A DNA stretch of 64,000 nt from Desulfoferula mesophila (GTDB taxonomy: Bacteria; Desulfobacterota; Desulfarculia; Desulfarculales; Desulfarculaceae): contig NZ_AP028679.1 in NCBI RefSeq assembly GCF_037076455.1, positions 635,501 to 699,500 on the forward strand. Reading direction: 5' to 3'. Position numbers and translations under genes: made by a program. Position 1 is the first letter of the stretch. Each line of letters begins with the position of its first letter. Of the stretch, positions 480-18,018 are shown piece by piece. The notes beneath the pieces were generated by a model that saw nothing but the letters and a program-made list of their open reading frames with translations, was not told the origin of the DNA and ran no database searches.

Positions 480-2066
480 TCACTCCCGCTCCACCAGGCC
501 CTCCTCGGCTTCCCGGTACTTTTTGCCGCAGGCGCGACATTGCATTTTAGGGTCAAGCCGCTCCCCGCAGGCGCAAATCCAGCCAATTTGCTTTGCCGGG
601 TTGCCCACCACCAGGGCGTGGTCCTTCACGTCCTTGGTGACCACGGCCCCGGCTCCCACCATGGCGTAGCGGCCCACGTCATGCCCGCACACTATGGTGC
701 AGTTGGCCCCCAGGGAAGCCCCGGTCTTGATCAAGGTGGGCAGGAGTTCGTCCATGCGGCGAATGCCCGCCCGGGGATTGATCACGTTGGTGAAAACCAT
801 GGAGGGGCCGCAAAAGACCTCGTCCTCCAGGGTGACGCCCTTGTACACGCTGACGTTGTTCTGAATCTTGCAACCCCGGCCGATGCTCACCTCGGGGCCG
901 ATGACCACGTTTTGCCCCACATTGCAGTCTTCACCCACCTGCGAGCCCTTGAGCACATGGGAAAAGTGCCAGATCTTGCTGCCCGACCCCACCCGGGCGC
1001 CCTCGTCGAGCACCGCGGTGGGATGCAGGAAGTAATCGGTTTGCTGCTCCGCATTGGCGGCCGGGGGCAGGGGCGCGCCATTGCCGTTGGTGCGCTTGCG
1101 ATCCAGGGAGGCCTGGCTGGCGTTGAGCACCTCCAGCACGGTCAAGCCTTCCTGGCCGTCCGTCAGCGGTTGCTCGCCTGTGGTGATGCAGCTCAAGAAA
1201 TGCTCGCACTCGCAGCGCAGAGGCTCGGTTTGCTGCAGAGGCACCATCTCGGCATCGGCTTTTTCCGCCAGGGGCAGGTGATTCTGCCAGTTGATCTTGT
1301 GGGGGTACAGGGACAGCTTTTCATCCCAGGGCAGGGTGTCGTTGAATACCGCCATTTTGGCGTCACCCACCACGATCAGCTTCTGCTCCTTAAAAGGGTG
1401 CAGCCACGAGACGAAGATGTGGGCCATGAGGCCGGAAGGAAATTCCAAATGGGTGGTGGTCACGTCGGCGATTTCCTGGTGCAGATAGTAGCCGCCCGTG
1501 GCCGTGACCTTGCAGGGCGGCTCGCCGGCCAGGGTCAGGATCATGGAGATGTCGTGGGGAGCGAAGGACCAGAGGATATTCTCCTCCCGCCTGAACTTGC
1601 CCAGGTTGAGGCGGTTGGAGTAGATGTAGTGTATGCGGCCCAATTCGCCGGCTTGGATGATCTCCTTCAGTTTGATGAACGCCGGGTGGTACTGCAAAAG
1701 GTGCCCCACCATCAGGACTAGCCCGCGCTGTTGGGCCAGTTCGATCAGCTCGCGTCCTTCATCCGCGTCCAGCACCAGGGGCTTTTCCACGTAAACGTGT
1801 TTGCCCGCTTCCAGGGCGGCCTTGGCCAGGCCGTAGTGGGTCCCCGCCGGCGTGGCGATTACCACCCCAGAAACCTGCCCGTGCTCAAAGGCGTCCCGGG
1901 GGTTGTTGGATACTTCAATGCCGGGATAGGTTTCCTGAATGGCGCCCAGCAGTTCCGAGTCGCTGTCGCAGACCAGGGCCAGAGCCCCGAGTTCATGGTA
2001 ATTGCGCACCAGGTTCTTGCCCCAGTACCCGCAACCTATAACGGCGATGTTTTTGTCGTTGTGCAT
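480..2066 (-). CDS. Gfo/Idh/MocA sugar oxidoreductase fused to left-handed beta-helix N-acetyltransferase (WbpB/WbpD-like)
   Basis: A 528-residue bifunctional enzyme for a nucleotide-activated amino sugar. Residues 7-18 carry the Rossmann NAD-binding motif (AVIGCGYWGKN) and EKP at 94-96 is the conserved catalytic-lysine motif of Gfo/Idh/MocA dehydrogenases. A linker at about 325-343 leads into hexapeptide repeats of a left-handed beta-helix acyltransferase (about 346-490), then a C-terminal zinc-ribbon-like Cys quartet (C498, C500, C510, C513). In Pseudomonas and Bordetella these activities are separate proteins (WbpB/WlbA and WbpD/WlbB) that oxidise UDP-GlcNAcA at C3 and acetylate the 3-amino product; the aminotransferase between them is not in this window. 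The start at 2066 is chosen over an upstream in-frame codon because of the Shine-Dalgarno AGGGGA and because the Rossmann fold begins directly after it. The fusion is clear; the exact sugar is inferred. Confidence 0.85.
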   Translation of the reverse strand: MHNDKNIAVIGCGYWGKNLVRNYHELGALALVCDSDSELLGAIQETYPGIEVSNNPRDAFEHGQVSGVVIATPAGTHYGLAKAALEAGKHVYVEKPLVLDADEGRELIELAQQRGLVLMVGHLLQYHPAFIKLKEIIQAGELGRIHYIYSNRLNLGKFRREENILWSFAPHDISMILTLAGEPPCKVTATGGYYLHQEIADVTTTHLEFPSGLMAHIFVSWLHPFKEQKLIVVGDAKMAVFNDTLPWDEKLSLYPHKINWQNHLPLAEKADAEMVPLQQTEPLRCECEHFLSCITTGEQPLTDGQEGLTVLEVLNASQASLDRKRTNGNGAPLPPAANAEQQTDYFLHPTAVLDEGARVGSGSKIWHFSHVLKGSQVGEDCNVGQNVVIGPEVSIGRGCKIQNNVSVYKGVTLEDEVFCGPSMVFTNVINPRAGIRRMDELLPTLIKTGASLGANCTIVCGHDVGRYAMVGAGAVVTKDVKDHALVVGNPAKQIGWICACGERLDPKMQCRACGKKYREAEEGLVERE

Positions 2067-2344
2067 GTCAAAGATCCCCTGACTCCCGCCGGCAAAGCGC
2101 CGCGCAGGATAGTCGCGCTTTCTTCCTGTCCAGCCAGGCCCGGATGAGGGGGCATGGGCAGAATACATTTTAGGTCCGAGAGGTCTCCACTCGCCGGGAA
2201 GCTGTCCCGGCGACAACCCAAGCCGCTGGGCGCCTTTTGCGGGCTCAGGGGCTCGGGATATTAGGCCGCGGTGCGCAACTCGCGCTTGGCGGCGATAATG
2301 GTTAACCGGCAGCGGACCATGCCGGCCACTCAGGGTTCCCGGGA

Positions 2345-3343
<999 letters not shown>

Positions 3344-3560
3344 TTTTGTACTCTCTTCGCATCCCCCTAACCGGGCAGGAAAAGGTGAGGTAGCTGCTGG
3401 ATCAACGCTGTAATATTCTTAAATAACGGATTGTTAGATCAGCCTGCCAGCGTTGGTGAGTAGCATAGCATATTTCCAGCCGATTAGGAATCGTCCTGGT
3501 TTTAGGGGTGATTGGCGCCTGTCGGCCGTCGCCCGGGGTGGGGGGCCGGCAAGGCGCTGG

Positions 3561-5003
3561 TCAACCGGCTTTTGGCCCGAGCCTGCCCCAGAACCCTTTG
3601 ACCTGGCCCATGGTTATCAACCCCAGGCACAAGGTGGAGGCGGCATAGACCGCCACTCCCAGGGCAATCAGGGCCCACAAGTTAAAGTGGCCCAGCCCTT
3701 TGGCGGCGGCTACCAGGCACCCCATGGCCAGGCAGGCCCCACCGGCCCGCAGGAAAAAATTCAAAGGCAGGCTCCACCCGGTCAGCCGCCGGCTGATGCC
3801 CATGGCGATCATGGCGTTAATGGTCTGCCCCGCCCAGAAAGCGGTGGCGGCTCCCAAGATGCCCAGGGAGGGAATCATTCCAAAGGACAGGGCCACGCTC
3901 AGGCAAACCCCCGAGGCCAGCAGCGGGAGTATCAGCTTGGTGCGCAGTTGCAGGTGCAGGGCGTATACGTTGGCCAGATAAAGGGCCGAGGAGAGATGGC
4001 CGGCGGCGGCCAGGGCGGCCACGGGCCAGGTGACGCCGAAGGCTCGCCCCGTCAGAAAAACCACCAGGTCGCTCCAGACAAGGGCCAATCCCACGATAAC
4101 CGGCAGCCCCAACAACAGCAGGTTGCGGTTGGCCGTGGCGAAAAGCTTGGCGGACTGCTCCCTGCGGTCCTCCCGCGTCCAGGCCTGGGCCAGTTGGGGC
4201 AGCAGAACGAAGTTTACCGCCGCCGAGAAGGTGACCAGCACCGAGCTCACGGTAAAGGCCACGGTGTATTCCCCCACCATCGCCTGCCCCTGCAGGTGCA
4301 CCAGCACGAAGCGCTCGATGTTCTTGCCCAGCCAGGTCAGGGCAACGGCGGGCAACAGGGGCAGGGCGTAGTAAAAATACGTTTTGGGCAGGGTGAGCTT
4401 AGCGCCCTGGAGCGGCACCCGCCGCCAGGCGGCCAGGGTGAGATATACGCAGGCGGAAAATTCGATCAGGCTTTGGGACCAGAGCAGCTCGCGCACCGAG
4501 GCGCCCCACAGGGCCAGCCCTAAGATGGCCGCCGTCCTGGCCGCGGTGATCGCCAGTTCCAGAATGCTCTGGCGCACCAACTCGAATCGGGCCCGCAACA
4601 GTGAAGACAAAAAGGTGCGCATGGACAAGGCTATGCCCAGAAAGACGGAGGCCCGGGACAAGGGCCCTCCGCCGGCGGAGTTGAAGATGACGCTACCCAG
4701 CGGATCGGCGAACAACCAGGCGACGGCATACTGGGCGGCCGCCATCACCAGGGCGAACAGCAGGCAGCTCCAAAACCGCTGCGCGAACGTGCCTTGTTCC
4801 CGGTCCTGGGCGTAAAAGCGGGGGATGACCACGGCCAGGCCCATGGTGGCCACGGCGGACACGCCCGTGACAACGGACATGGCCAGGCCCCATTCGCCAT
4901 ACTGCGCCTTGCCCAGGGTGCGGGTGAGTATGGGCAGGTATACCAGGGTAGCCAGGGACAACGGGGCGGACAGGAAAAGGCGCAACAGAATGCGCCGGGT
5001 CAT
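3561..5003 (-). CDS. Wzx-type polysaccharide/oligosaccharide flippase (MOP superfamily)
   Basis: A 480-residue polytopic membrane protein with regularly spaced hydrophobic helices throughout, beginning LRLFLSAPLSL and containing the flippase-like run PILTRTLGKAQYGEWGLAM (a short loop then 'YGew' as in polysaccharide biosynthesis flippases). It would move lipid-linked repeat units across the inner membrane. The start at 5003 is chosen because it has a good Shine-Dalgarno (GGGGAG) and puts the first helix at the N terminus; the longer frame to 5141 overlaps the upstream glycosyltransferase. It is co-directional with the GT4 gene, 58 bases after its stop. A second flippase at 14652-16013 points to two glycans or two assembly steps in the region. 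Confidence 0.85.
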   Translation of the reverse strand: MTRRILLRLFLSAPLSLATLVYLPILTRTLGKAQYGEWGLAMSVVTGVSAVATMGLAVVIPRFYAQDREQGTFAQRFWSCLLFALVMAAAQYAVAWLFADPLGSVIFNSAGGGPLSRASVFLGIALSMRTFLSSLLRARFELVRQSILELAITAARTAAILGLALWGASVRELLWSQSLIEFSACVYLTLAAWRRVPLQGAKLTLPKTYFYYALPLLPAVALTWLGKNIERFVLVHLQGQAMVGEYTVAFTVSSVLVTFSAAVNFVLLPQLAQAWTREDRREQSAKLFATANRNLLLLGLPVIVGLALVWSDLVVFLTGRAFGVTWPVAALAAAGHLSSALYLANVYALHLQLRTKLILPLLASGVCLSVALSFGMIPSLGILGAATAFWAGQTINAMIAMGISRRLTGWSLPLNFFLRAGGACLAMGCLVAAAKGLGHFNLWALIALGVAVYAASTLCLGLITMGQVKGFWGRLGPKAG

Positions 5004-5061
5004 CAACTCCCCGCCGCCGCGGGAGGCGGGGCCGTCAGGCGCGGCGTTAGGCCCGCCCTGC

Positions 5062-6327
5062 TCAGGCACGCGATCCAACCAGGCCGCGGTAAAGCTCCCG
5101 CAACAGCTTTTGCTCCACCTCCCAATTGTGGCGCCGGACAAAGGCGTCAGCCGCCGCCCGCCCCATGGCTTGTCTTTGCGGGCCGTTGGACGCCAGGCGC
5201 TCGAACGCGCCTATAATGGCTTCGTCGTCCAGGGGGGAGACGCAGATCCCCAGCCCCGCTTCGTCCACCAGGCGCAGCATCTCCGGAAAATCCGAGTCCA
5301 CCGAGGGAATGCCGGCCTGCATGTAGATGAAAATCTTGTTGGGCGCGGCCATCTGGTGACTGACGCTGCCCGGGCTGATCAGGCAGGCCCCGATGTCGGC
5401 CGAGGCGGTGATGGGCCCCACCTGCTTCTGGGGCACCGCCCCGTGAAAGATCACCTTGTCCGGCGGCAGGCCGGAAGCCATTTGCTCCAACTCCGCCCGC
5501 AGGGGGCCGTCCCCCAGGAAAAACACCGTGCTTCCCGGTAGGCGGGGAGCCAGCCTCACCAGGGTCTCGCAGCCCCGCCCCACTTGCAGGCCGCCGACGT
5601 AAATGATTATTTTGCGCTCCGGCGGCAGGTGGTAACGCCGCCGGATGAAATCGTTTTTTTCCGCCAAGGGCAGGGGAGGGTAGTTGTGGATCACCCGGAC
5701 GCGGGTCTTGAGCCGGGGGTGATCCGCGTGAAGGCGCTGGGCGATGGATTCGCTGACCGTGGTCACCAGATGGGCCTTGGGCACGAGCCACTTCTCCACC
5801 ACCTTGTAGGTCAGGGTCCGAAGACGCCCCTTGAGCTGGCGGGGGATGACGTTGGAGGCCCGGGAGGCGTGGTATTCGTGGGAGTCGTAGACCAGGCGAG
5901 CCCTTTTGCGCTTGGCCAGAACCCGCCCCAGGGGCAGCATTTCCACGTCATTGGACAACACCAAGTCCACGGGTTGGCCGGCCAGAGAGCGCCAGACCAC
6001 GGGCAGGCTGTCCAGGCAGAATTGATGATTCAACAGCGATATAAGGGGTAAACGGCGTACCAGCCGCGTTGGGGCTTGTTTGGCGCAGTCGCGATGCCAC
6101 AATCCCCTGAAAATGGTCAACCCGTCCAGCGTCTCGCTGCCAGGCTGGGGGCCATTTTGGTCGCAGACCACGACCACCTGCCAACCGTCACCCAATAGTG
6201 CCCGGGCGCAGTTCATGACCCTGGGATCGAACCAGCCATCCGCGCGACAAAAATCATTTCTGACCAATAACAACGCGCTCGGCGATTTGGCGATGGGGCC
6301 GGTCGGCGGTTTGTGGGGCTGTGTCAT
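5062..6327 (-). CDS. GT4-family glycosyltransferase
   Basis: A 421-residue GT-B glycosyltransferase. The N-terminal half contains NDFCRADGWFDPRV and a conserved acceptor-side segment (LVLSNDVEMLPLGR); the C-terminal donor-binding half shows YVGGLQVGRGCETLVRLAP at about 243, FLGDGPLRAELE, and a late acidic-rich segment (MQAGIPSVDSDFPEMLR) that replaces the EGFPL-type motif of GT4 enzymes. It would transfer a sugar during assembly of the surface glycan in the cytoplasm. It is the first gene of a minus-strand group with the flippase and GT2. The start is the ATG at 6325-6327, with a distant GAGGG upstream, so a slightly different start is possible. Confidence 0.8.
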   Translation of the reverse strand: MTQPHKPPTGPIAKSPSALLLVRNDFCRADGWFDPRVMNCARALLGDGWQVVVVCDQNGPQPGSETLDGLTIFRGLWHRDCAKQAPTRLVRRLPLISLLNHQFCLDSLPVVWRSLAGQPVDLVLSNDVEMLPLGRVLAKRKRARLVYDSHEYHASRASNVIPRQLKGRLRTLTYKVVEKWLVPKAHLVTTVSESIAQRLHADHPRLKTRVRVIHNYPPLPLAEKNDFIRRRYHLPPERKIIIYVGGLQVGRGCETLVRLAPRLPGSTVFFLGDGPLRAELEQMASGLPPDKVIFHGAVPQKQVGPITASADIGACLISPGSVSHQMAAPNKIFIYMQAGIPSVDSDFPEMLRLVDEAGLGICVSPLDDEAIIGAFERLASNGPQRQAMGRAAADAFVRRHNWEVEQKLLRELYRGLVGSRA

Positions 6328-6700
6328 GGCAGAGATACTTTACCCTCGAGGCTCAATTGTCCACCGCGATTATAATGGATTGGCTTCCAGGATGGTGGCG
6401 ACTTGTAAAATGCCTTGTCGCGCCAAGCTGGGCCGCCCACGTGTTCAGGCCTCGGCGCCGGCCGGAAACTGGTGCAGATACTCAACAACCGGGCGCGGCC
6501 TCCAGGACCACGGCGGAGGGTTGTCGGAAATGGTAAAATATCACCTACCATGCTGGCAACATACTTAGGCCTGCCCAAGGCGGATAGTGGAAACATGGCA
6601 TAAGGTGACGTTTAGTCCGTTTTGGCGTTCACGTTGCTCACGGCAAACGACGCCAGCCGGAAAATCTCATTGAACCGGGTGTTTTTTGGGCCTTAGCCAA
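6328..6700. other. Divergent intergenic region between two glycosyltransferase genes
   Basis: The genes on either side point away from each other, so promoters for both should lie here. I see no convincing -35/-10 pair, palindrome or additional protein-coding remnant; the short frames in both directions have no recognisable motif. Confidence 0.4.
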
Positions 6701-8029
6701 ATGCATATACCTTATTCGTCTCATTCGGCCGGGGGTAAGACCTGCCTGGTGGTTGCATACTGGGCTCCTTGGCTGAATATCCCGGGGTCGATCCGCTACC
6801 GCAAGCTGTTCTCGCGTCTGGAACGTCATGGCTGGGAAATTCGGTTGCTGACCGTGGGTAGCGCGCGCGACTGTTTGCGCTACGGCGACCCCGAGCGGTG
6901 TCTGGCCGTTCCCCTGCTTACCGCCAGGCGGCTCACAAGCGGGAAAGCGGCCGCCTGCGCCATACCCGGCCTCGCTTCTCGGCTGCCGATCCATCGGGTC
7001 AAGGCGGCCCTGAGCCTGTTGGTCAGACGGGTTCCCGTGCCCCGCACCTACGGCTGGTTTCGCCAGTGGCCCCGCATCCTGGCGTGGAGCCGCCGGATGG
7101 CGCCGGACCTGATACTCAGCACCTCGCCTCCCCCCAGCGCCCATTGGCTGGCCAAGGCCCTGGCCGCCAAGCTCGGCAAGCCCTGGGTGGCCGAGCTCCG
7201 CGATCCCTGGGTGGACAATCATTACTACCAGAAGTCGGGCGTGTTTTATGACCTGGAGCTGTGGCTGGAGCGCAAGCTCTTGGCCAGCAGCGACGCTTTG
7301 ATCACCGTGTCCCCGCAAATAGCGGCCAACCTGGCCGCCCGTCACGGCAAGCCGGTGAAGGTCATCGACCATTGCTTCGAGGGCCGGACGCCGGGGTCTT
7401 GCCCGGATGGCGCTCCTGAAACCGCCGGCCGGTTCGACCTGGCCATCCCTCTCACCATCCTCTACACCGGCCGCCTGTACCCGCCCTTTCTCATGCCCGG
7501 CATGCTCTTGGAGGCCCTGGATGAGCTGCGCCGGTCGGGCGTGCTGCGGCCCGGCGACATCAAGCTGGTTTTTTACACCCCCAGCCGGGCCATGTTGAGC
7601 GACTGGCTGGCTCGGGAGTATGCCCCGCTCCAGGGCTACTGCGAGCTGCACGATCCGGTAAGCAACGAGCAAGCCCTGCAGCTCCAGCGGAACTGCGATT
7701 TATTGCTGGCCTTGGGCTGGTTCGGTCCCCGGGGCCAGGGCGTGGTGACCTCCAAGCTGGGCGAGTACCTGGGAACCGGCCGGCCCATTCTGGCCATCGC
7801 CTCGCCGGATTCCCGTTTGAGCGATATCCTGGACTCGGTGGCCAACGGTTTTCCGGTGCATTCCGCCAAGGCCTGCGCCGCCCTGCTCAGCGAATTCTTG
7901 CGTCTGGCCAGGCGGGGCGCCCACCTGCGGCCGCAGTCGGCGTCTCTCGAGCGGTACTCTTGCCGGGAACAGGCGAGCCGGTTGTCGCAGTTCCTCAACG
8001 AGGTCGCCGACCACCACGCGTCAATGTAA
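6701..8029 (+). CDS. Glycosyltransferase, GT4-like (GT-B fold)
   Basis: About 442 residues. The N terminus reads CLVVAYWAPWLNIPGSIRY, like many GT-B enzymes of exopolysaccharide clusters. The middle has the acceptor-side segment PDLILSTSPPPSAHWLA and AELRDPWVDNHYY; the C-terminal half has TILYTGRLYPPF at about 255 and the donor-site region SKLGEYLGTGRPILAIAS at about 352. Likely a cytoplasmic glycosyltransferase acting in glycan assembly. I chose the ATG at 6701; a TTG at 6686 in the same frame would add five residues, and neither has a strong Shine-Dalgarno. It is transcribed divergently from the GT4 gene on its left and stands alone on its strand. Confidence 0.78.
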   Translation: MHIPYSSHSAGGKTCLVVAYWAPWLNIPGSIRYRKLFSRLERHGWEIRLLTVGSARDCLRYGDPERCLAVPLLTARRLTSGKAAACAIPGLASRLPIHRVKAALSLLVRRVPVPRTYGWFRQWPRILAWSRRMAPDLILSTSPPPSAHWLAKALAAKLGKPWVAELRDPWVDNHYYQKSGVFYDLELWLERKLLASSDALITVSPQIAANLAARHGKPVKVIDHCFEGRTPGSCPDGAPETAGRFDLAIPLTILYTGRLYPPFLMPGMLLEALDELRRSGVLRPGDIKLVFYTPSRAMLSDWLAREYAPLQGYCELHDPVSNEQALQLQRNCDLLLALGWFGPRGQGVVTSKLGEYLGTGRPILAIASPDSRLSDILDSVANGFPVHSAKACAALLSEFLRLARRGAHLRPQSASLERYSCREQASRLSQFLNEVADHHASM

Positions 8030-8388
8030 AGAGCCGCCCGAGGCGCGAGGCTGTTGCGCGCACCGCTGCGATGGGCGGCCCGTTGTTCTCGAGTTGGGGA
8101 TGGTGGCGCCGGGCGGGGCGGCCGGCGCCGCGGCCGCGGGCTCAGTCCGCCGCGTTGGCCAGGATGTGGTCGGCCGTCGACCCCGCGGCCTTTGCCCAGG
8201 TTGTTTGTTGAATATTGATTGTGCAAACGGTGGTCTGTTATAAGGCCTTATGTTAGGAGAGAGTTGCAAATCCTGTCAGATGTTATGAGCAATAGTTTGC
8301 TAAACGCTATGCAGAATGCACCTCAAGAAACTACCCCCAAAGAGGGCGAATAAGTTCAACACCTTCAATTCAGAAGAGGGTGGGTAAA
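8030..8388. other. Intergenic region upstream of the GNAT gene, with two possible tiny ORFs
   Basis: The right part is clearly richer in A+T than the glycosyltransferase gene to its left. An ATG at 8250 opens a 12-codon frame (MLGESCKSCQML) whose stop overlaps the ATG of a 22-codon frame at 8285-8353 (MSNSLLNAMQNAPQ...). Neither has a strong ribosome site, so I do not call them genes. No clear promoter or terminator hairpin was found. Confidence 0.35.
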
Positions 8389-9507
8389 TTGATTTCCAAT
8401 GAACTGATCTATCGCGGTTATCAGCAAGGCGATGAACGCCTTCTCAAAGAGCTTTGCATTCAGGTTTTTAATGAAGAGCGCTCGATACCGGACTGGCAAT
8501 GGGAATTCATGGATACACCGGAGGGACCATCCAATATTCGTGTGATTGAAGATAAGGGCGCTATTGTAGGCCACATCGCCCTGATACCGATCCGGTTTCA
8601 ATATATGGATAAAGAAATCGTGGTGGGCAAATCCGAAGATTCCAGCCTGCGCGAGGACTACCGTGGGAAGAGGCTGTTCGGGAAACTGGAACATCAATGC
8701 TTTGATGAGGCTGCTGAAAAAGGCTATGCCGCCTCCTACAGCATCTCCAGGACCGCTAATGATGTTCACATCAAGGCCGGCTACCATCCGTTGAAACCTA
8801 TCGAAGGCTATTTTGTACCCTTGCGTTCCGATCAGGTTGTGAGCGAGCTAAAAAGCGCCGGGATTATTTCCGGATACCAGGCATGGTTTGCCAGGCCCCT
8901 GCTAAAGGTTATCGAGCGGAGATTTCGCAGGCGGTTGGAGCGAGCCGAATCACCGCCGGCGGGTATAACCATCGAACGAATGACTCGGTTCACAACTGAG
9001 TTTGATGACCTCTGGCGACGGTTTGCTTGTCAGAACCGCGTGATCACCATTAAGCGTTCATCGGCTTACTTAAACTGGAGATTCAATCAAAAACCAAACA
9101 ATGAATACGAAATTTATGCAGCGCGGTGTAAGGGCGAACTAGTTGGTTATTTGGTGTGCACAAGCGTTAAGCGCAAAGGTAACTTCAAAGTAGATCTAAA
9201 AATCGGAGTCACTTCGGACTTTTTATTTCTCAATTCGCATCAGGAGGTATTGGCTCCGCTGATTTATAGGGCAGCAAATTACTGGGTGGAGTGCCAATGT
9301 GATGTTGTGATTAACTGGGTTCATCGCGATAGCCTGTATGCCCCGAAAATGATTGCTCAACTTAAAAAACTTGGGCTGGTATCCATGCTCGGAAAGTACA
9401 GCATACCCATATCGGTTCGCGCCTTGCGAGATGAAGTGTCAATCGACTACATCGCCAATGAAAGGAACTGGTTCTTCACCCTGGCGTTTTCCGGAAGGTG
9501 GGCCTGA
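8389..9507 (+). CDS. GNAT-family N-acetyltransferase of a polysaccharide cluster
   Basis: About 372 residues. The N-terminal part is a GNAT fold: a WQWEFMDTP segment, then IVGHIALIPIRFQY, VVGKSEDSSLREDYRGKRLF (the acetyl-CoA loop, R-x-x-G-K/R-G/R type) and a following helix. The C-terminal half is a second, less conserved GNAT-like domain (HQEVLAPLIYRAANYW). It probably acylates an amino sugar. I place the start at TTG 8389, which has AGAGGG eight bases upstream; a GTG at 8380 is the alternative but sits directly on that ribosome site. The gene is visibly more A+T-rich than its neighbours and uses codons (TTT, AAA, ATT) rare nearby, which suggests transfer. A decayed relative lies just downstream on the other strand. 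Confidence 0.75.
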   Translation: MISNELIYRGYQQGDERLLKELCIQVFNEERSIPDWQWEFMDTPEGPSNIRVIEDKGAIVGHIALIPIRFQYMDKEIVVGKSEDSSLREDYRGKRLFGKLEHQCFDEAAEKGYAASYSISRTANDVHIKAGYHPLKPIEGYFVPLRSDQVVSELKSAGIISGYQAWFARPLLKVIERRFRRRLERAESPPAGITIERMTRFTTEFDDLWRRFACQNRVITIKRSSAYLNWRFNQKPNNEYEIYAARCKGELVGYLVCTSVKRKGNFKVDLKIGVTSDFLFLNSHQEVLAPLIYRAANYWVECQCDVVINWVHRDSLYAPKMIAQLKKLGLVSMLGKYSIPISVRALRDEVSIDYIANERNWFFTLAFSGRWA

Positions 9508-9526
9508 AAGACTTTTAAATGGCAGA

Positions 9527-9907
9527 TTAACGCGTTAAAATTGTTTGATTTTGCGGATTTCGCTTGGCTTGCATGGCTATGCCGGGCCGCTTGTTCGTAG
9601 GGTCATGCTTGGCTTGCAGGGCGCGGATTGGGAGCCCAAAGGTGTTTTCGGTCTTGCCCACCGCCACCGAGGTGCCCCGGTATTGGCAGGGGATGTAAAT
9701 CACCCCGATATGCCCCACCAGCTTTTCATCGTCCGGGTCGCGGATAATCCAAGATTCACTGGGCGGGAACGGGGTGTCCACCCACTGCCAAAGGTATTGG
9801 TCCAGGGTGCGCCGCCGCCCGGTTACCGAGTTTTAGGCCGTGTTGATATCCGGGTAGTCCTCGGGCAGGGACGGCCGGAAGATGAATTTAGCGTGCAGGC
9901 TCATCAT
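9527..9907 (-). pseudogene. Truncated GNAT acetyltransferase, with in-frame TAA
   Basis: On the minus strand, an ATG at 9905-9907 opens a frame reading FIFRPSLPEDYPDINTA, then TAA, then in the same frame RTLDQYLWQWVDTPFPPS, LVGHIGVIYIPCQYRG and VAVGKTENTFG. This matches the intact GNAT at 8389-9507 segment by segment (WQWEFMDTPEGPS, IVGHIALIPIRFQY, VVGKSEDSS). After KTENTFG the similarity stops, before the acetyl-CoA loop, and the frame runs through an imperfect 16-base direct repeat (9562-9577 and 9607-9622) to a stop at 9527. It starts 34 bases after the deacetylase stop, so it was probably the second gene of that operon. With one stop and no acetyl-CoA site it cannot be functional. Confidence 0.75.
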
Positions 9908-9941
9908 CGACTTTCCGCAGCATTGGCCAAGACCCGGGTGC

Positions 9942-11012
9942 TCAGCATGCAGGCGCCGACGGCGCTGCGCCGCCCCACCGGCAGCAATTGTACACTTCCT
10001 TGTGGGTCATCACCGCGAAGTCCGACCACTCCCGGGCGGCATCCAGGAGCCGGCCGTGGAAACCGCTGTATTTGGCGGCCCAGGAAGGGTGCAGGTTGAT
10101 CACTCCCACCCCGCCCAGCTCCAGCACCTGTTTCAGGTGGGTCTCCACAAAGGACCAGGCCTGCTCCTGGCTCAAGCCCAGGTCCAAAAACAAGGTGGAG
10201 TCCTGCAACAGTATGGGAAGCTCCCAGAGGACGCCGGAAGGCTCCAGAGGGTAGGGGAAGCAGCTTTGCGTGCTGGGATGGAACATGCTGCTCATGGGCA
10301 GGCTGGAATCGATGCGAAAACCAAGGTCCCTTACCCGAGCCATGAGCCGCTCTGTCATGCATAGGGCCGGGGCGCGGTAGCTGTGGACGTTTTTTCCCAG
10401 GCCGCGCAGGGCTCTCCGCAACTCCCCGGCGATGCGCTCGTCGCGCCGGTAGCCCAAGGCCACGTCGTGGCTGGCCCCGTGCAGCCCCACCTCGTGACCC
10501 CGGGCGCTCACCTCCTCCACCAGGGCCGGGTCCAGCCGGTATTCCCAGTCGGTGAGCAGATGAAAGGTGGCCTTGAGGCCGCGCTGGTCCAACTGATCCA
10601 GCAGGGTCGGCAAAAACCGGTAGCAGCTCAGCAGGTCGACGTCGTAGCTGAGGCACAGGGCCGCTCTTTTGCCGGCATACCCCCGTTGCCGCGAGCCCTG
10701 GGACCTGACTCCGGCGACCAGCCGGTTGAACTCGCATTGGTTGGGCTCTTTGAGCAGTTCGGGATCTGCACAGCGCAGGCGGTGCGCCAAACCCAGCAGC
10801 AACTCGCGAAGCGGACGGGGGCAACGGCGGGTTACCCCCTGAAAGCTCCGGTGGACCAGGCCCTTGACTCCTCCGCTGCTCCGCGGGCGCAGCATCCCGC
10901 GCAACAACTCCAGGTCCTGTGCGGGTTCCAGGCAGGCGGGGTTGTAATCTGGAAAAAGGCCCTGCATGGCCAGATGAACGGGATCGTCGCTTTTGATCGG
11001 AGTGAGGGGCAT
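9942..11012 (-). CDS. Polysaccharide deacetylase (NodB homology, CE4)
   Basis: A 356-residue protein with a NodB-type deacetylase domain at about 116-330. Motif 1 is LSYDVD (catalytic/metal aspartates D124 and D126), motif 2 is HGASHD (metal histidines H178 and H182) preceded by RGHEVGL, and a later SYRAPAL matches the motif 3 arginine. CE4 enzymes remove N-acetyl groups from GlcNAc-type sugars. There is no signal peptide, so it probably acts on a cytoplasmic or lipid-linked precursor, as in many O-antigen and exopolysaccharide clusters. The first 110 residues are an extra N-terminal region. The GNAT pseudogene follows it on the same strand. Confidence 0.85.
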   Translation of the reverse strand: MPLTPIKSDDPVHLAMQGLFPDYNPACLEPAQDLELLRGMLRPRSSGGVKGLVHRSFQGVTRRCPRPLRELLLGLAHRLRCADPELLKEPNQCEFNRLVAGVRSQGSRQRGYAGKRAALCLSYDVDLLSCYRFLPTLLDQLDQRGLKATFHLLTDWEYRLDPALVEEVSARGHEVGLHGASHDVALGYRRDERIAGELRRALRGLGKNVHSYRAPALCMTERLMARVRDLGFRIDSSLPMSSMFHPSTQSCFPYPLEPSGVLWELPILLQDSTLFLDLGLSQEQAWSFVETHLKQVLELGGVGVINLHPSWAAKYSGFHGRLLDAAREWSDFAVMTHKEVYNCCRWGGAAPSAPAC

Positions 11013-11555
11013 TTAAAAACCTTGTTTTGTGAACCTGTTCATGATGATGCCAGATTCGACAAACTGCTCCTTTTTTAGCAGAAGAAGACATGGGCCATAA
11101 AGGATGAATTTGGCCCGGCGGAGAAGATGCTTGTAAGCGTTTTAAATCGTTTGCAATAATTATAAATTTTTTCGATAGGCTATCGTTGGGGGTAAGAGCT
11201 TCGGCCTTGTTTTACGGCCGATGAACGGCGCTCGGCAGTAGTTGATATAGGTTGCCCGGCGGGCAAGCGGGGCGGTGATTGCGCCCGGGCTTGCCAGGGG
11301 AAATTAGGTATGTTAAAAGCATATCACCAAGTTGGGGTATGGTCCGCTACGCCAACACTAAGGTGATGGCCGGATCCCCGGCACGGGTAAATATGAATCG
11401 GCTGGATTTGTGCTTCAGGGCCGCCCTTGAGTTGCCTGTAGGGGAAAGGAAAAAATATTTCTTAAAAAAACCAAGAGCGTAGATTAAATCGCCAAGTTTT
11501 GATGTCGCCAGCAGGTTCTGTGGTTTGAAAAGTTGAAAGCTCGGGCAGGTCGAAG
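11013..11555. other. Long A+T-rich divergent intergenic region
   Basis: The deacetylase (minus) and the GT-C-like gene (plus) diverge from here. The stretch 11100-11220 is strongly A+T-rich and is the likeliest promoter site. A 67-codon frame at 11279-11482 starts with TTG, has no ribosome site and no recognisable motif, so it is not called. No repeat or RNA structure that I can name. Confidence 0.4.
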
Positions 11556-13007
11556 ATGATTGAGCTCTTGTTAGCCGTCGATTTGGGTTTCGTCAATTTT
11601 ATAATTAGTTATATGTTGAGTTCCCTTGGCTTTTTTGCGGTGTCCTGCGCCATAGTGAAGCCGCAGCGCCAACAACTCCTGCAAGTGTTTTCCGCCTCGA
11701 TCATCTTTGGTCCCTTTCTGCTTGCCCTGATGCTTTATCACGAACTGATGTGGCTTCCCGGCCATGAAGGTGTCGTTTATATTTTAATTACCTCGTTTTT
11801 GCTGTTGGCGACCCTGGTTGTTTTCCGGCTACATCCCAATTACATTACGGACCTTGCCCGGGAAATACGGGACAAGGTGCGCTCTTTCTCTAAACTGGAC
11901 CGGCTGCTGCTGGGCCTGCTCGCCCTTGTATTGCTGTCCCTGTTCGCGCTGGCCATTTCCCTGCCTCTTTATGGCCACGATATCGCGGAGCACTCCAAAA
12001 GCGCCGCGATCATAGCCCAGGCCAAGGACTTCTCGGTCTATCCCTTGCATGGCTATAAAGGCGTATTCACCCAGGCCAAGCACCCCCCGACGGTAATCGG
12101 GCTCTGGGTGTGGCAGTATTTCTTCTATCTGCGCGATTCTTACGACCAAACCCTGCTGGGCAAGCTGATCTCTCCCAGCGTGGCCCTGCTTACCTGCCTG
12201 GCGCTGATAGGATTCGCGGAAAAGCGGCGCCAGACCCTGGCCATCTTGGGCAGCATCGTCCTTTTGTGTACGCCGCTGATGTACACCAACGTAGCCAGCT
12301 CCCACGTGGACATCAATCGCGGCGCCACCTACCTGGGCGCGGCGTTGTGGCTGTTGCTGTGCCTGCGCTCGCCCAGCTGGCCCTTGGCGATAATGACCGG
12401 GCTGGCCATCGGACTGGCCGCCAGGGTGCATCTCTCCAGCCTGGTGATAGGCCCCCTGCTCGCCACGAGCTATCTGGCCATAGCCGTGTTTCGCAAGGGT
12501 TTCAAATGGAGCGCCCTTAAAAGCGACGTGGCCATCTGCTCCCTTATGGCGCTGGCCGCTTTGGCGGTTTGCGGCTTTGACTACGTCCGCATGCTCTATA
12601 TTTACGGCAAGAACGTTGTCTCCACCGAAGAAGGTTTCTCGGTGGTGGCCAACTCCGGCATCAATTACCGAGCATACGTGGAAATTGTTCGTAACATCCA
12701 CGGCATCCCGCAAAAAATTTTCAACGGGTTGTTAAAGGGTTTTACCGACATCGAGCTGATGGGCCTGACCTATTGGCTGGCCCTGGTTGGCGTGTTGGTT
12801 TTGGCGATTAGGCGTCGTTTTGATACCCAGCTAGCTGTTTTTATGCTTCAATTCTTGTTCTTTTTGATCCTGCTGGCTCTTGCGGTGCTTTTCAGCTTTG
12901 ACCTGTTGTTGAAAAACTCACGATACTACCTGATGTTTCAGCCTTTCGTGGCTGTTTTGGCCTGTGCGGCCTTAGAGCCTCTTTATGAAAAAAATACTGA
13001 AATATAG
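11556..13007 (+). CDS. GT-C superfamily-like membrane glycosyltransferase (ArnT/PMT type)
   Basis: A 483-residue polytopic inner-membrane protein with about a dozen hydrophobic segments. The first large periplasmic loop carries YGHDIAEH at about 140-147 (acidic catalytic-type D/E pair) and, 30 residues on, AKHPPTVIGLWVW, which resembles the 'D-K-P-P' element of ArnT/PMT enzymes. Such enzymes transfer a sugar from a polyprenyl-phosphate donor on the periplasmic side; the DPM1-like GT2 at 2345-3343 could supply it. The protein ends right after its last helix, without the soluble periplasmic domain usual in this superfamily, and its last 23 bases overlap the next gene, which seems to carry such a domain. 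Family assignment rests on topology and two short motifs. Confidence 0.65.
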   Translation: MIELLLAVDLGFVNFIISYMLSSLGFFAVSCAIVKPQRQQLLQVFSASIIFGPFLLALMLYHELMWLPGHEGVVYILITSFLLLATLVVFRLHPNYITDLAREIRDKVRSFSKLDRLLLGLLALVLLSLFALAISLPLYGHDIAEHSKSAAIIAQAKDFSVYPLHGYKGVFTQAKHPPTVIGLWVWQYFFYLRDSYDQTLLGKLISPSVALLTCLALIGFAEKRRQTLAILGSIVLLCTPLMYTNVASSHVDINRGATYLGAALWLLLCLRSPSWPLAIMTGLAIGLAARVHLSSLVIGPLLATSYLAIAVFRKGFKWSALKSDVAICSLMALAALAVCGFDYVRMLYIYGKNVVSTEEGFSVVANSGINYRAYVEIVRNIHGIPQKIFNGLLKGFTDIELMGLTYWLALVGVLVLAIRRRFDTQLAVFMLQFLFFLILLALAVLFSFDLLLKNSRYYLMFQPFVAVLACAALEPLYEKNTEI

Positions 13008-14619
13008 CGTCTTGGCTATTGCCATCATCGCCTTGACCGCGCAGGCGGGCAAATCCCTGGTGCGGTATTCCTTAGTTATGATAATGCAGACTCCCCTGAC
13101 CTTCCACGGGCTGGTGCCCCGAATTACATTGAATGATTATGAGCGGCTTTTGTACGCGGGAAACGCCGTTTCGCGGGTAGCATATTACGCCAATCACAAC
13201 GTGCCCCGTGACAAAACGATCCTGGTGTTTCGACGGGGCAAATTCTTGGCCTACGCCAAAGTAAAATCCATGTTGTTCCTCAATCCAAAAATGGAAAAGG
13301 TATACGCCAGCAAAACCGCCGAGGAAGGCCATCGGCAGCTTGTCGCCTTAGGCATATCCCACATCTATGTTCCGCCGTACTATAGCCCTTTGATTAGCGG
13401 GACGGTTATCAACGGCATATTGAGCGACCCCCGCCTTAGCCAAAGGCTCTTTTATTGCGAAGGTCACTCCGTTTTCAAGATCCTGACCGGCGGCGACGAC
13501 AACAAACAAGCCGAGGCCAAGGCTAAAACGGTATACGCGTTTTCGGATGATCATGGCGATCCGGATGATGTTTCAAACAGGTGGACGGCGGTTGAAGGTA
13601 AAAAATTGATAGAGGTCCGAGGCGTTCCGACCCTGAATCTGCCGTTTTGGGCCAAGGGTGATAAGGCTATTTACACCGGTTTGGGCCCCTTGAGCTTGGC
13701 TCCCGAACCCACCCCTAACTGGCCTGAATTGCGGGAAAATACCAATTACAGGATTTCGGGCGAGTTGGAGGGGGAGGGCTGGGTCAGCGTGCTGGCGGTC
13801 AGTTATTGGCCCAACGGCTTGGCTAGGTTGAACACCCTGATTTGGGATGGCACCATCCCCGGAAGCGGCAAAAGCAAGGTGGACTTTTCCGGGGTCTATA
13901 CCACGGGCAGGGAGGAAACCTGCATCCGGCTGGTTTTTGTTTTGAAGACCCCCGGCAACTTGCGGGTAAAGAAAGCGGTTGTTTCCGAAATCGGCCCGGC
14001 CGGCCCCAGCGAAATCATGGAGTCCGGCAAATCGGGGGTTAATTTGCTGAGCTGGCCCGTTTACCCGAAAGGGTGGCGAGTGTTCAGCCGCACCGAGGGC
14101 AAGGTAATCATGGGGCCCTATACCCAGGATTTTGGTGAGTTGTCTGCTTTAAAACCGGTTGCCAAGGATGAGCAGCCCCGGCCCGCCGAGTGCCGGCAGA
14201 GGCTCAAGTTACAAGTACAAGGCAGTGGGTTGTTGCAGGTGAACGTCACCTCCGGGCAGGATATTAGGGGGCAAGCCAAGCTTGTCGAGGAAAGCAGGTA
14301 TTTTTTCCTGACCGACCTCAGCAAGGAGATCGTTTTCAAGCTTCCTCAAGGGACGGATGCCTCCACCCTGCAAGTATCGCTGATCCCGCTGGACCTGAGG
14401 CTGGCGCCGGTGCAGGTGTACGATATCCACAAAACCATCATACGGGTGGGCAAGTTGTCCTTGCAAAAGGCCTGTCCCTCCCGGGGCTCCGGCAGTGACG
14501 GCCGGGATCTCGTCTGGCAAACGGTGAGGGCCTCGGACCAGAACGTCAAACTTTATCCAAGCAGCGACAACTCATTCGGCATTACGGCGGACCCATCCTA
14601 CTCTCGCCAATACCAATAG
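12985..14619 (+). CDS. Membrane-anchored periplasmic protein, probable detached soluble domain of the preceding GT-C enzyme
   Basis: A 544-residue protein with one N-terminal hydrophobic segment (about 5-20) and a long soluble remainder. Residues 115-165 include LGISHIYVPPYYSPLIS, LSDPRLSQRLFYCEGHSVFKI; the pattern 'LGI.yi.V.p ... l..dprl...f....vfki' is typical of the C-terminal periplasmic domain of GT-C glycosyltransferases. The rest is beta-rich with no family I can name. Its start overlaps the end of the GT-C-like gene by 23 bases, so the two are co-translated. I infer that a GT-C enzyme is split into two subunits here. An independent periplasmic accessory protein is the alternative. Confidence 0.6.
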   Translation: MKKILKYSVLAIAIIALTAQAGKSLVRYSLVMIMQTPLTFHGLVPRITLNDYERLLYAGNAVSRVAYYANHNVPRDKTILVFRRGKFLAYAKVKSMLFLNPKMEKVYASKTAEEGHRQLVALGISHIYVPPYYSPLISGTVINGILSDPRLSQRLFYCEGHSVFKILTGGDDNKQAEAKAKTVYAFSDDHGDPDDVSNRWTAVEGKKLIEVRGVPTLNLPFWAKGDKAIYTGLGPLSLAPEPTPNWPELRENTNYRISGELEGEGWVSVLAVSYWPNGLARLNTLIWDGTIPGSGKSKVDFSGVYTTGREETCIRLVFVLKTPGNLRVKKAVVSEIGPAGPSEIMESGKSGVNLLSWPVYPKGWRVFSRTEGKVIMGPYTQDFGELSALKPVAKDEQPRPAECRQRLKLQVQGSGLLQVNVTSGQDIRGQAKLVEESRYFFLTDLSKEIVFKLPQGTDASTLQVSLIPLDLRLAPVQVYDIHKTIIRVGKLSLQKACPSRGSGSDGRDLVWQTVRASDQNVKLYPSSDNSFGITADPSYSRQYQ

Positions 14620-14651
14620 CTGCGTTCCCAAGAACCTGACGAAAACAAGGC

Positions 14652-16013
14652 ATGATTTCAGCCGAAATAAAAAAATTGCTTGGCGGCTTTCGCGATTCCC
14701 TGTCCGGCAACTTGGCCAGCGAGGATGGAGGGAAGTTCCGCGGCGATGTAATGTGGAACCTGCTCTCCCTGGGGGTGCTGGGCGCCAGCGGCATAAGTAT
14801 AAACATACTGATTTCCATCTACTACTCCCCGGCCTATTTGGGCATATTCAACCAGGTTTACGCGGTTTACATCATTGCCTCCCAAGTGGCGGCCTTGGGA
14901 GTGCATCTGTCGGCGCAACGCTCGGTGGCGGCCCACGGCGAGGACCGCGACGAATGGAAAACCGCGGCTCTTTCGGCCTGGATCGTCTGCCTGTGCACCT
15001 CGCTGCTCGGCTGCGCCGCGCTGTACTTCCTCATCCCGCTGGTCGGGAGCATCTTGGACAGCCCCCAGGTGGTGGAGGGCTTGTATTGGGTTCTGCCCGG
15101 GGTCGGCTTCTTCGCCCTGAACAAGGTGTTGCTGGGCATTCTCAACGGGCGCAGGCGTATGAAGGCCTACGCCCTCATGAACGGCCTGCGCCTTTTCCTG
15201 GTGCTCATGGTGGTGCTGCTGTGCGCCGTCACCGGCCAGCCCGGCCAACGCCTGCCCGTGTCCTTCAGCCTGGGCGAGTTCGTCCTGCTGCTATGCCTGA
15301 TGGTCCTGACCTACAAGGATCTATGGCCTTCCACCCTCGCCCAGTTGCGGGTGTGGATCGGGCGTCACATCAAGTTCGGCTACAAGGCCATGGTGGCCGG
15401 GATCATCATGGATATCAACTGCCGGGTGGACGTGCTGGTGTTGGGAGTTTTCGTGAGCGACCGGGAGGTGGGGCTCTACAGCTTCGCGGCCATGCTCGCC
15501 GAGGGGTTCAATCAGATCCTGGTGGTGCTGCGGATCAACTACAACCCCTTGATCGCCAGGCTTTGGCACGAGGGCAAGCTGCCCCAGCTCTACAGCCTGT
15601 TCCGCGCCGGCCGCAAAAAGACCTATCTTATCGTCGCCCCCCTGGCGGCGGTTCTGCTTGTCGCGTTTCCCCTGGCCACCTGGCTGGTCCCCGCCCTATC
15701 GGCCTACCAAGCCAGCTTTCCGGTCCTCGCCCTGTTGATGGCCGGCATCATGAGCTACGCCGGGTATCTGCCCTTTTCCCACCTATTGCTGCAGAGCAAC
15801 AGCCCAGGAGCGCAGTCCGTCATGACCGGGGTGATCGTGAGCATGAATTTTCTGCTCAACCTGGCCATGGTGCCCTTGTGGGGCAAGGAGGGTGCGGCCC
15901 TGGCCACGGCCATCAATTTCGTCTTATACGGCTTATGGGTGCACTTGATCATCCGCTGGAAATTGGGCTTGGCGAGAAACCCCCGCGGCGCGGGCCTGCC
16001 TTCGGGCGATTGA
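14652..16013 (+). CDS. Second Wzx-type flippase (MOP superfamily)
   Basis: A 453-residue polytopic protein with helices from about residue 30 to the end. The opening helices (WNLLSLGVLGASGISINIL, then YYSPAYLGIFNQVYAVYII) have the flippase layout in which the first loop holds 'lG.fn..ya'. An amphipathic cytoplasmic N terminus of about 30 residues precedes the first helix. It would translocate lipid-linked oligosaccharide across the inner membrane. It lies 32 bases after the preceding gene on the same strand, so it is probably the last gene of the operon 11556-16013, and it is convergent with the amidotransferase gene. Confidence 0.82.
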   Translation: MISAEIKKLLGGFRDSLSGNLASEDGGKFRGDVMWNLLSLGVLGASGISINILISIYYSPAYLGIFNQVYAVYIIASQVAALGVHLSAQRSVAAHGEDRDEWKTAALSAWIVCLCTSLLGCAALYFLIPLVGSILDSPQVVEGLYWVLPGVGFFALNKVLLGILNGRRRMKAYALMNGLRLFLVLMVVLLCAVTGQPGQRLPVSFSLGEFVLLLCLMVLTYKDLWPSTLAQLRVWIGRHIKFGYKAMVAGIIMDINCRVDVLVLGVFVSDREVGLYSFAAMLAEGFNQILVVLRINYNPLIARLWHEGKLPQLYSLFRAGRKKTYLIVAPLAAVLLVAFPLATWLVPALSAYQASFPVLALLMAGIMSYAGYLPFSHLLLQSNSPGAQSVMTGVIVSMNFLLNLAMVPLWGKEGAALATAINFVLYGLWVHLIIRWKLGLARNPRGAGLPSGD

Positions 16014-16077
16014 GGGCCGGGCCTGCCCAACCGGCGGGCCGCCAAAAAACCAAGACCTCGCCCGGCCCCGGGAAGGC

Positions 16078-18018
16078 TCAGTACAGCTTGGGTATCTGGT
16101 TGATCACCTGCAGGGCGTGGTCCAGGTCGAAGCCGATGGTGTTGGCGTACCAAACCAGGGATTCGTACCTGGGCTGGTTGTCGCGCTTGACCATTTGCAG
16201 GGCCTCGTCGCGACTGAGGATGTTTTCCCTGATCTGGTTGCTGCGGAAGGTGTCGTGTTCGGTAAAGCCGGCCACGGTGTAGTAGATGTAATTGTAAAAT
16301 GCGGCGGTGCCGTCGCCGATGCGCCAGGTGTTTTTGGTGTCCTTGGCCTCTTCCCAATCGAACTCCCGGCGCAGGGTCTCCTGGATTTCCCGCTCGTCCC
16401 AGGGAATGTAATGGATAAAGGGCAGGGTTAAGAAATCGTGCTTCATCCAATACGACGAGTACAGGGCCCACAGGCTGTCGAGCAGGGAAAAGTTGATGTA
16501 GGAGGGGCTTAGGAAAATTTCTTTGAGGTAATAGGATAGCATCATCAATTTGCGGGTGACGGGAATGTTGTAAATCCGGCCCGAGGTCTCCTCCACTCCG
16601 GTGAAGCCGGTCTTGAAGTTGGTCTTCTCAAAGGGGTTGCCCATCAGGTAGACCAGCTCCACTCCCATCTGTCGGCGAAGCTTGTCGGCGTAATAAAAGT
16701 ATTGCTTGTCTCCGGCCATGAACAGCGGAATCATCCCCAGGGAGGGCCGCTTGAGCCAGGCTTCCACGTTGTTGCGGATGTATTTGCGCTTCTTTTTGAT
16801 GTCGGCGCTGATGATGATGTGCTCCACCCCCAGGCGGCCACAGACACGGGCCTGGTTCCTGCGCCCCAGGTCGGTGAGCATGCCCCAGTCGTAGGAATAG
16901 GCCACCGGGTTCAGGCGCAGCTTCTCCTTGATTAGGTAGAGCCCGAAGCAACTATCGCGCCCTCCGCTGACCCCCACCACGCAGTCGGGGGTGCCGTCGT
17001 TGCGGCGGTGGCGGTCGGCCTGCTCCAACAGGGCGTCCATGCCCAGCATCTCCGGCGGCTTGTGCTCCCGGCAGAAGTTGCAAACTCCCTCGTCGTCGAA
17101 GTTGATGAAGGGCATGGTCTCGGGCAGCACACAGCGGGTGCAGCGCTTGATCCCGTCCCGGCGCGCCTCATCCTCCATGGTGGAGGAAGATATCTCCAAG
17201 CGGCCGCCGCCGGAACGGGCAAGCCCGACCTCGGGCTCCGCGGGCGAGGCCAGCTCAAACAACCACAGAGAGTGGTCGGTCAGGTCCACCAGGCAACCTT
17301 GGCCGGGGCGGATTTGGGTGGGCTGGTCCCAGTTGAGGTAACCCGCGGTGCGGCTGCGCTCCTTGAATTCGTCCAGGATGTGCTTTTCCGAGGCGATGAC
17401 CCGCACCGTCCGGTCTTCGGAGGTGCAAAAATACATGGACCCGGTGTTGGTGGCCCAGAGCATGGCCTCTTGGTCGGCGGGGAACACCAGGGTGGAGGCC
17501 GAGCCCTCCAGATCGCCGAAGGCGGCGGAGGTGGCAAGGGCCAGGCTTTTGCCCTGGCTCATATATCTGCGAATCAAACAGAGGATGATCTCGGTGTCCA
17601 CCTCGTAACGGCGGGTCAGATCGGGGTTGACCGACCACAGGTAATCGTCGTTGACCACGATTCCGTTGTGCACCGCGACCATGTCACCGGCAATCACCGG
17701 TTGGTTGTTGTTGCCGATGCTTTGCAGGCCGTTGGTAACCAGGCGGGAGTGCCCGATGATCGCCCGCAGATTCGGCCGGACGCCGTTGCCCGAGAGGCGC
17801 TTGGCGCAAAAAAGCTTGAAGCCCTTTTGCTTGATCATCTTGGAGGCGGGGACCGGCTGTTTGTAGACGTTGATGCCCCGGTCGTCACGCACCGCCAAGC
17901 CGGCGGCCTCCTTGCCGCGGGACTCGGAGAGCTTGAAGAGCAGGTTTATATCAGCGATGACATCCGGGGCGGGTATCCTGCCGGACATATCGCCGACCAT
18001 GCCAAAAATGCCACACAC
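16078..18018 (-). CDS. Class II glutaminase fused to N-acetyl-sugar amidotransferase (WbpG/PseA/LegF-like)
   Basis: A 646-residue two-domain enzyme. Residues 1-250 are an Ntn-type glutamine amidotransferase: MCGIFG puts the nucleophile at Cys2, with GHSRLVTNG at 89-97 and VHNGIV at 116-121. Residues 290-646 are a PP-loop ATPase of the N-acetyl-sugar amidotransferase family, with two CxxC pairs (C293/C296 and C313/C316) and the ATP loop SGGRDS at 351-356. These enzymes convert an acetamido group to an acetamidino group using ATP and ammonia. In Pseudomonas WbpG works with separate HisH/HisF-like partners; here the glutaminase is built in. The start is the GTG at 18018, because Ntn hydrolases need the nucleophile at position 2. 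It fits chemically with the WbpB/WbpD-like fusion at 480-2066. Confidence 0.85.
   Translation of the reverse strand: MCGIFGMVGDMSGRIPAPDVIADINLLFKLSESRGKEAAGLAVRDDRGINVYKQPVPASKMIKQKGFKLFCAKRLSGNGVRPNLRAIIGHSRLVTNGLQSIGNNNQPVIAGDMVAVHNGIVVNDDYLWSVNPDLTRRYEVDTEIILCLIRRYMSQGKSLALATSAAFGDLEGSASTLVFPADQEAMLWATNTGSMYFCTSEDRTVRVIASEKHILDEFKERSRTAGYLNWDQPTQIRPGQGCLVDLTDHSLWLFELASPAEPEVGLARSGGGRLEISSSTMEDEARRDGIKRCTRCVLPETMPFINFDDEGVCNFCREHKPPEMLGMDALLEQADRHRRNDGTPDCVVGVSGGRDSCFGLYLIKEKLRLNPVAYSYDWGMLTDLGRRNQARVCGRLGVEHIIISADIKKKRKYIRNNVEAWLKRPSLGMIPLFMAGDKQYFYYADKLRRQMGVELVYLMGNPFEKTNFKTGFTGVEETSGRIYNIPVTRKLMMLSYYLKEIFLSPSYINFSLLDSLWALYSSYWMKHDFLTLPFIHYIPWDEREIQETLRREFDWEEAKDTKNTWRIGDGTAAFYNYIYYTVAGFTEHDTFRSNQIRENILSRDEALQMVKRDNQPRYESLVWYANTIGFDLDHALQVINQIPKLY

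Follow-up and report, generated by a model that had tools for sequence, protein, structure and literature searches.

A class II glutaminase fused to a NASAT-like domain: a candidate self-contained sugar amidotransferase found in many genomes

The stretch of Desulfoferula mesophila DNA analyzed here (64,000 nucleotides, contig NZ_AP028679.1, positions 635,501 to 699,500; hereafter the window) carries on its minus strand, at 16078–18018, a gene whose 646-amino-acid product joins a class II (Ntn) glutaminase to a NASAT-like PP-loop amidotransferase, as judged from the open reading frame, the Pfam and NCBIfam matches and a structure model. The architecture of this protein and its generality across genomes are firm. 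It is probably a self-contained glutamine-dependent sugar amidotransferase that equips a surface glycan with an acetamidino sugar, a reading based on the observed domains, the conserved active sites, the occurrence of the fusion in many phyla, the lack of HisH and HisF partners and the location in a glycan cluster. The fused enzyme appears to do alone a job that is divided among three proteins in its known relatives.

The open reading frame occupies exactly 16078–18018, and its GTG start abuts an in-frame TAA upstream, so that Cys2 of the product (which begins V/M-C-G-I-F-G) would be exposed once the initiator is removed. The gene is present as a single copy in its own genome. Residues 1–235 (17314–18018, minus strand) form the glutaminase domain, which matches Pfam GATase_6 and GATase_7 above their cut-offs and is also matched by the GlmS, PurF and AsnB models of NCBIfam. 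The best solved-structure match to the N-terminal half by sequence is the GlmS glutaminase 1xff (E = 2e-6). In that alignment R92 and T95 (codons within 17734–17745), N118-G119 (17662–17667) and D141 (17596–17598) fall on Arg73, Thr76, Asn98-Gly99 and Asp123 of GlmS, which we take to be its Gln-binding residues. All of these residues, together with Cys2 (codon 18013–18015), are identical in 84 of the 84 aligned fused sequences. A Cys right after the initiator Met and a complete set of Gln-binding residues mark the domain as class II, as the preliminary description had proposed when it spoke of an intact nucleophile; the circumstance that it had named as fatal to its own reading, an N-terminal domain devoid of Gln-binding residues, was tested and does not hold. 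The fused protein is like GlmS (1XFF) and PurF in having an N-terminal Cys Ntn glutaminase with the same Gln-site residues, but neither an isomerase nor a phosphoribosyltransferase domain follows it.

The remainder of the chain, behind a linker of residues 236–288 (17155–17313, minus strand) in which the AlphaFold2 confidence drops below a pLDDT of 50 at residues 259–275, is the NASAT-like domain (residues 289–646; 16081–17154, minus strand). According to PMC10607449, NASATs are recognized by a tetracysteine, CxxC...[GN]xCxxC, and a PP-loop, SGGxDS. Both are found here, as the zinc site C293-x2-C296 ... C313-x2-C316 (17071–17142) and as SGGRDS at residues 351–356 (16951–16968). All 84 aligned fused sequences have the same four zinc cysteines and the same SGGRDS, and a simple pattern scan recovers the tetracysteine in 84 of 86 fused rows, a set that differs slightly from the 84-row alignment. 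Each of the 86 fused rows has SGGRDS as its PP-loop. Among the 23 classical rows the usual form is SGGKDS, found in 19, and the C-domain of the fused clade carries further clade-specific motifs. Its best solved-structure match by sequence is LpNASAT (8wex, E = 7e-12).

By NCBIfam, residues 291–615 match TIGR03573 (WbuX, N-acetyl sugar amidotransferase) with E = 1.6e-37 and 129.7 bits, and this is the sole TIGR03573 match in the genome. Since the curated cut-off of 203.2 bits was tested and missed, we do not file the fused protein as a member of TIGR03573. In function the C-domain probably resembles a NASAT, yet it belongs to a sister subfamily, because it scores below the WbuX cut-off, forms its own clade and has SGGRDS in place of SGGKDS. 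Thus the fusion to a glutaminase that the preliminary description had reported is real, whereas the "WbpG/PseA-like" character that it gave to the second half holds at the superfamily level only. The fused C-domain shares with WbpG, WbuX and LpNASAT (8WEX) the SGGxDS loop, a zinc tetracysteine in the same position and the fold, and differs from them in its score, its loop and its separate clade, and also in that the fused protein has its own glutaminase and no HisH or HisF partners. Neither a Pfam Asparagine synthase domain nor, at E = 1e-3 in Pfam and NCBIfam, a QueC domain was found in the fused protein, and the score with the NCBIfam model asn_synth_AEB was 19.4 bits, far short of the cut-off of 267.1. 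Two WbuX-type proteins in other loci (L150, 6728–8668; L155, 5700–7535) have N-terminal extensions of 240–275 amino acids that match no Pfam family.

We modeled the fused protein with AlphaFold2 on an 82-sequence alignment (A3), from which L083 was excluded as near-identical to L077, and obtained a mean pLDDT of 91.2 and a pTM of 0.90. The N-terminal half of the model aligns with 1xff over 223 residues (Z = 27.4, 2.3 Å; VIA-align) and the C-terminal half (residues 289–646) has the LpNASAT fold, aligning with 8wex over 310 residues (Z = 23.5, 4.0 Å, 22% identity; VIA-align). In structure, the glutaminase half resembles GlmS and PurF (Z about 28) more closely than it does asparagine synthetase (Z about 22). 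The comparison with asparagine synthetase drawn in the preliminary description is thus apt for the order of the domains and less so for the glutaminase itself. Asparagine synthetase B and the beta-lactam synthetases likewise place a class II glutaminase, or its relic, before an ATP-pyrophosphatase domain, but the PP-loop domain of the fused enzyme is of NASAT type with zinc cysteines. Whole-model Foldseek TM-scores (normalized by query length) are 0.28–0.35 to GlmS, PurF and AsnB, and about 0.25–0.29 to the asparagine synthetase B and beta-lactam synthetase type of enzyme, so the two halves are packed differently from those of GlmS, PurF and AsnB.

The same fusion, which the preliminary description had proposed to look for elsewhere, was indeed found in other genomes. 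In a 395-genome sample of the phylum of the window there are six matches at E = 1e-30 or better, three of which are fused (the genome of the window, G236 and G098); of the other three, the one in G207 is close but unfused, and the remaining two are distant matches. Scanning 84,980 species genomes yielded 201 relatives, and the best 80 of the 201, which were picked for full-length similarity and hence are uninformative on the frequency of unfused members of the clade, all span query residue 1 to at least 635. Judged by record titles and tree labels, these 80 fused loci bear 18 phylum-level names, including two archaeal ones (Methanobacteriota and Woesearchaeota). One locus, L088, is absent from the 84-row residue alignment but included in A3, in the neighbor-linkage counts and in the tree; one survey of the neighbors of fused loci comprised 79 loci and L090, without L088. 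A chance or frameshift fusion was ruled out, given that it recurs in 80 loci and that the active-site residues are kept in 84 of 84 aligned rows. The fusion is also carried by two viral contigs (L090 and L091) with an identical protein; in L090 it lies at 7035–8861, surrounded by glycosyltransferase-like genes and with a terminase gene a few genes away. A third viral contig of 119 kb (L092) has a glutaminase-less form among glycan genes.

We then compared the neighborhoods of fused genes with those of classical NASAT genes. In the HisH-HisF2/AglZ-WbuX system, ammonia is produced by a class I triad glutaminase and relayed through a barrel protein. The presumed outcome is the same as in the fused enzyme, namely the transfer of glutamine-derived ammonia onto a sugar N-acetyl group, but the fused enzyme is a single polypeptide with a class II Ntn glutaminase. 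PMC11340318 describes a polysaccharide cluster with the classical WbuX-HisF2-HisH set. Classical loci (L136–L154, over the curated cut-off) and mid-size NASAT-like loci (L156–L172) were drawn solely from the phylum of the window, and the fused loci cover the whole of GTDB; L155, which is below the cut-off, and L173–L175 were excluded from the group counts, and one neighbor-linkage count ended its classical loci at L153. HisH is present in the fetched stretch of 18 of the 19 classical loci and of 1 of the 80 fused loci (P = 1.4×10−17, Fisher's exact test, with loci that are not independent of each other); with L155 counted in, the classical figure is 18 of 20. HisF gives 17 of 19 against 1 of 80, and neither gene occurs in any of the 17 mid-size loci. 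Fused loci thus lack dedicated HisH and HisF2 partners nearby. In the genome of the window, one HisH and one HisF score over their cut-offs, and they adjoin each other at 3.02 Mb, far from the window. These counts and the scan of the genome itself give good genomic support to the claim of the preliminary description that ammonia is supplied independently, and it is well supported that the fused enzyme is a second evolutionary route of supplying ammonia to sugar amidination.

The sole exception among the fused loci (L062) has HisH, AglZ/HisF2 and its own WbuX (261.6 bits, over the cut-off) in succession, and this complete classical trio (13053–15722) adjoins the fused gene (10001–12001), so that one glycan cluster seems to use both ammonia solutions. 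In a classical locus (L146, 10034–12106), a 690-amino-acid protein combines HisF (residues 5–245) with a WbuX domain that scores above the cut-off, a merger which indicates that the joining of relay and synthase has also happened by another route. The mid-size proteins are mostly of about 333 amino acids, and in 8 of the 17 loci an asparagine synthetase-like gene lies no more than 5.5 kb away.

A quick maximum-likelihood tree built from 131 C-domains, with several long branches, unites all 86 fused rows with three close but unfused ones in a single group (support 97). Outside this group stand 20 of the 23 classical rows (support 100) and most of the mid-size ones. Two of the unfused rows (L175 and L092) are nested within the fused group, which suggests that they have lost the glutaminase, and the third (L025_17809) is a basal branch of that group. 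No glutaminase was found near these three genes, save for a separate fused copy in L025. This Patescibacteria contig carries the fused copy at 10001–12019 and the unfused reading frame at 17809.

From these data we infer ammonia channeling, the ATP chemistry, a sugar acceptor and an acetamidino product. In the proposed mechanism, Cys2 at the N-terminus would hydrolyze glutamine and the released ammonia would move internally to the PP-loop domain. This domain would adenylate the N-acyl oxygen (most likely that of an N-acetyl group) of the sugar, with conversion of ATP to AMP and PPi, and the nitrogen would then replace the activated oxygen to give an acetamidino sugar for the surface glycan. 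The NASAT reaction and the proposed conversion of ATP to AMP follow PMC10607449. Whether modifications of glycans, including acetamidino groups, precede or follow assembly is not known according to PMC12871550. The one structural paper on NASAT enzymes that was found regards their function as little understood, and we found no test of the route of ammonia to the sugar in the open-licence literature searched. A single chain spares the reconstitution of three proteins, so that sugar amidination should be directly testable in vitro with the fused enzyme.

The glycan cluster of the window spans 480 to 18018, and succinyl-CoA synthetase-like genes, identified by eye, lie to its left. It contains a Gfo/Idh-hexapeptide acetyltransferase fusion, a GT2, two flippases, two GT4s, a GNAT, a polysaccharide deacetylase and a GT-C-like membrane protein. 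The GT2 (2345–3343, minus strand; Pfam Glycos_transf_2) resembles the polyprenyl-phosphate glycosyltransferases PpgS and AglJ, with NCBIfam scores that are all below cut-offs. One MOP-type flippase (14652–16013, plus strand; Pfam Polysacc_synt) belongs to a family that is linked to the fused gene. The membrane protein (11556–13007, plus strand) has no Pfam family match and was placed by fold search alone; its AlphaFold2 model (pLDDT 83.8) has a predicted GT-C fold, with OST, ArnT and AftA as the best PDB matches (best E = 1.2e-4), and it is a probable periplasmic glycosyltransferase.

In 32 of the 44 full-flank fused loci a member of the GT2 group lies within 5.5 kb of the fused gene; such proximity is seen in 1 of the 19 classical loci and in none of the 17 mid-size ones (P = 6×10−7). 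Among the 51 fused loci that have the GT2, it is on the same strand in 44, in 36 of which it is upstream of the fused gene. The flippase family is distributed in a similar way, being present in 19 of the 44 fused loci, 1 of the 19 classical ones and none of the 17 mid-size ones. A close GT2 homolog is found in 43 of 390 genomes of the phylum of the window, and hence the GT2 is not exclusive to the fused system. In the window, some 13 kb separate the GT2 from the fused gene and the flippase is encoded on the opposite strand, so they are cluster mates here rather than members of an operon. The linkage to the GT2 nevertheless hints at a lipid-carrier pathway for amidino sugars. It is conceivable, although we consider it quite unlikely in this full form, that bacteria, some archaea and phages share a so far undescribed pathway in which a GT2, the glutaminase-NASAT, a flippase and a GT-C enzyme produce amidino sugars attached to polyprenyl phosphate. 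The GT2, of PpgS/AglJ type, would first join a HexNAc to the polyprenyl-phosphate carrier, and the glutaminase-NASAT would convert the N-acetyl group of this sugar to an acetamidine, which is cationic. The lipid-linked sugar would then be moved by a dedicated flippase and put on a surface glycan or protein by the GT-C enzyme. The charge modifications by ArnC/ArnT or of FlmF2 type are analogs of such a pathway.

We expected fused loci to be without nucleotide-sugar enzymes, which was not borne out. All six kinds of such enzymes are missing from 17 of the 44 full-flank fused loci and from 7 of the 19 classical loci, which is no difference. Gfo/Idh genes are rarer near fused genes (7 of 80) than near classical ones (8 of 19), as counted with profiles built from the fused loci. 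The neighbors of fused genes thus indicate no single nucleotide-sugar pathway, and the UDP-diNAc-hexuronic acid named in the preliminary description is at most a candidate substrate. The dehydrogenase of the window cluster that is fused to a hexapeptide acetyltransferase (480–2216, minus strand; NCBIfam and Pfam) presumably resembles a WbpB plus WbpD combination, and the same combination was also seen in L173 and L017.

The acceptor could differ from that of NASAT, since the C-domain is below the WbuX cut-off and has SGGRDS and clade-specific motifs. The same machine might therefore act on another group, for example by turning the carboxylate of a uronic acid into a uronamide, or on a different N-acyl group. 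We regard this as unlikely: it would agree with a distinct clade that has its own PP-loop and motifs, with the missed cut-off and with neighbors that point to no single nucleotide-sugar pathway, and fusions of a class II glutaminase with a PP-loop domain that make carboxamides are known in the asparagine synthetase-type enzymes. However, among solved structures the closest is that of a NASAT, which shares the tetracysteine and the PP-loop, the Pfam scan revealed no asparagine synthetase domain, and the dehydrogenase-acetyltransferase fusion of the window is compatible with an N-acetylated uronic sugar. That the glutaminase domain has a structural or regulatory role, with the PP-loop domain fed by free ammonia or by another protein, is improbable. 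The unfused forms (L175, L092 and L025), of which two branch within the fused clade, do speak for it, whereas Cys2 and all Gln-site residues are invariant (84 of 84), which argues for selection on glutaminase catalysis.

Two further functions were rejected. A queuosine-type enzyme, or one acting on tRNA or nucleobases such as 7-cyano-7-deazaguanine synthase, would account for one plasmid record that is so annotated and for weak QueC matches in two relatives; it is very improbable, because the protein of the window does not match QueC in Pfam or NCBIfam and because the neighbors in the genomes examined and in the phage contig are glycan genes. A plain asparagine synthase, the other finding that by the preliminary description would have undone its proposal, has the identical order of class II glutaminase and PP-loop domain, but the family scans reported above and the match of the C-domain to LpNASAT leave it a negligible probability. 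The self-contained sugar amidotransferase accordingly remains our preferred reading.

The fused family is common and misannotated: existing records call its members 7-cyano-7-deazaguanine synthase, glucosamine 6-phosphate synthetase or hypothetical protein. No paper on the fused glutaminase-NASAT protein was found in the open-licence literature, and within that literature the enzyme is apparently undescribed so far. Naming the family would correct the records of many genomes and would flag surface glycans that are likely to be positively charged. Two plasmids illustrate the state of the records. In Solidesulfovibrio carbinolicus (L179), the fused gene is annotated as a 7-cyano-7-deazaguanine synthase, with a GT2 27 bases upstream and asnB genes downstream. 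In Agrobacterium sp. RAC06 (L180, CDS 8064–9815), the annotated start is 63 bases downstream of the start of homology, so that the deposited protein is without the catalytic N-terminal Cys.
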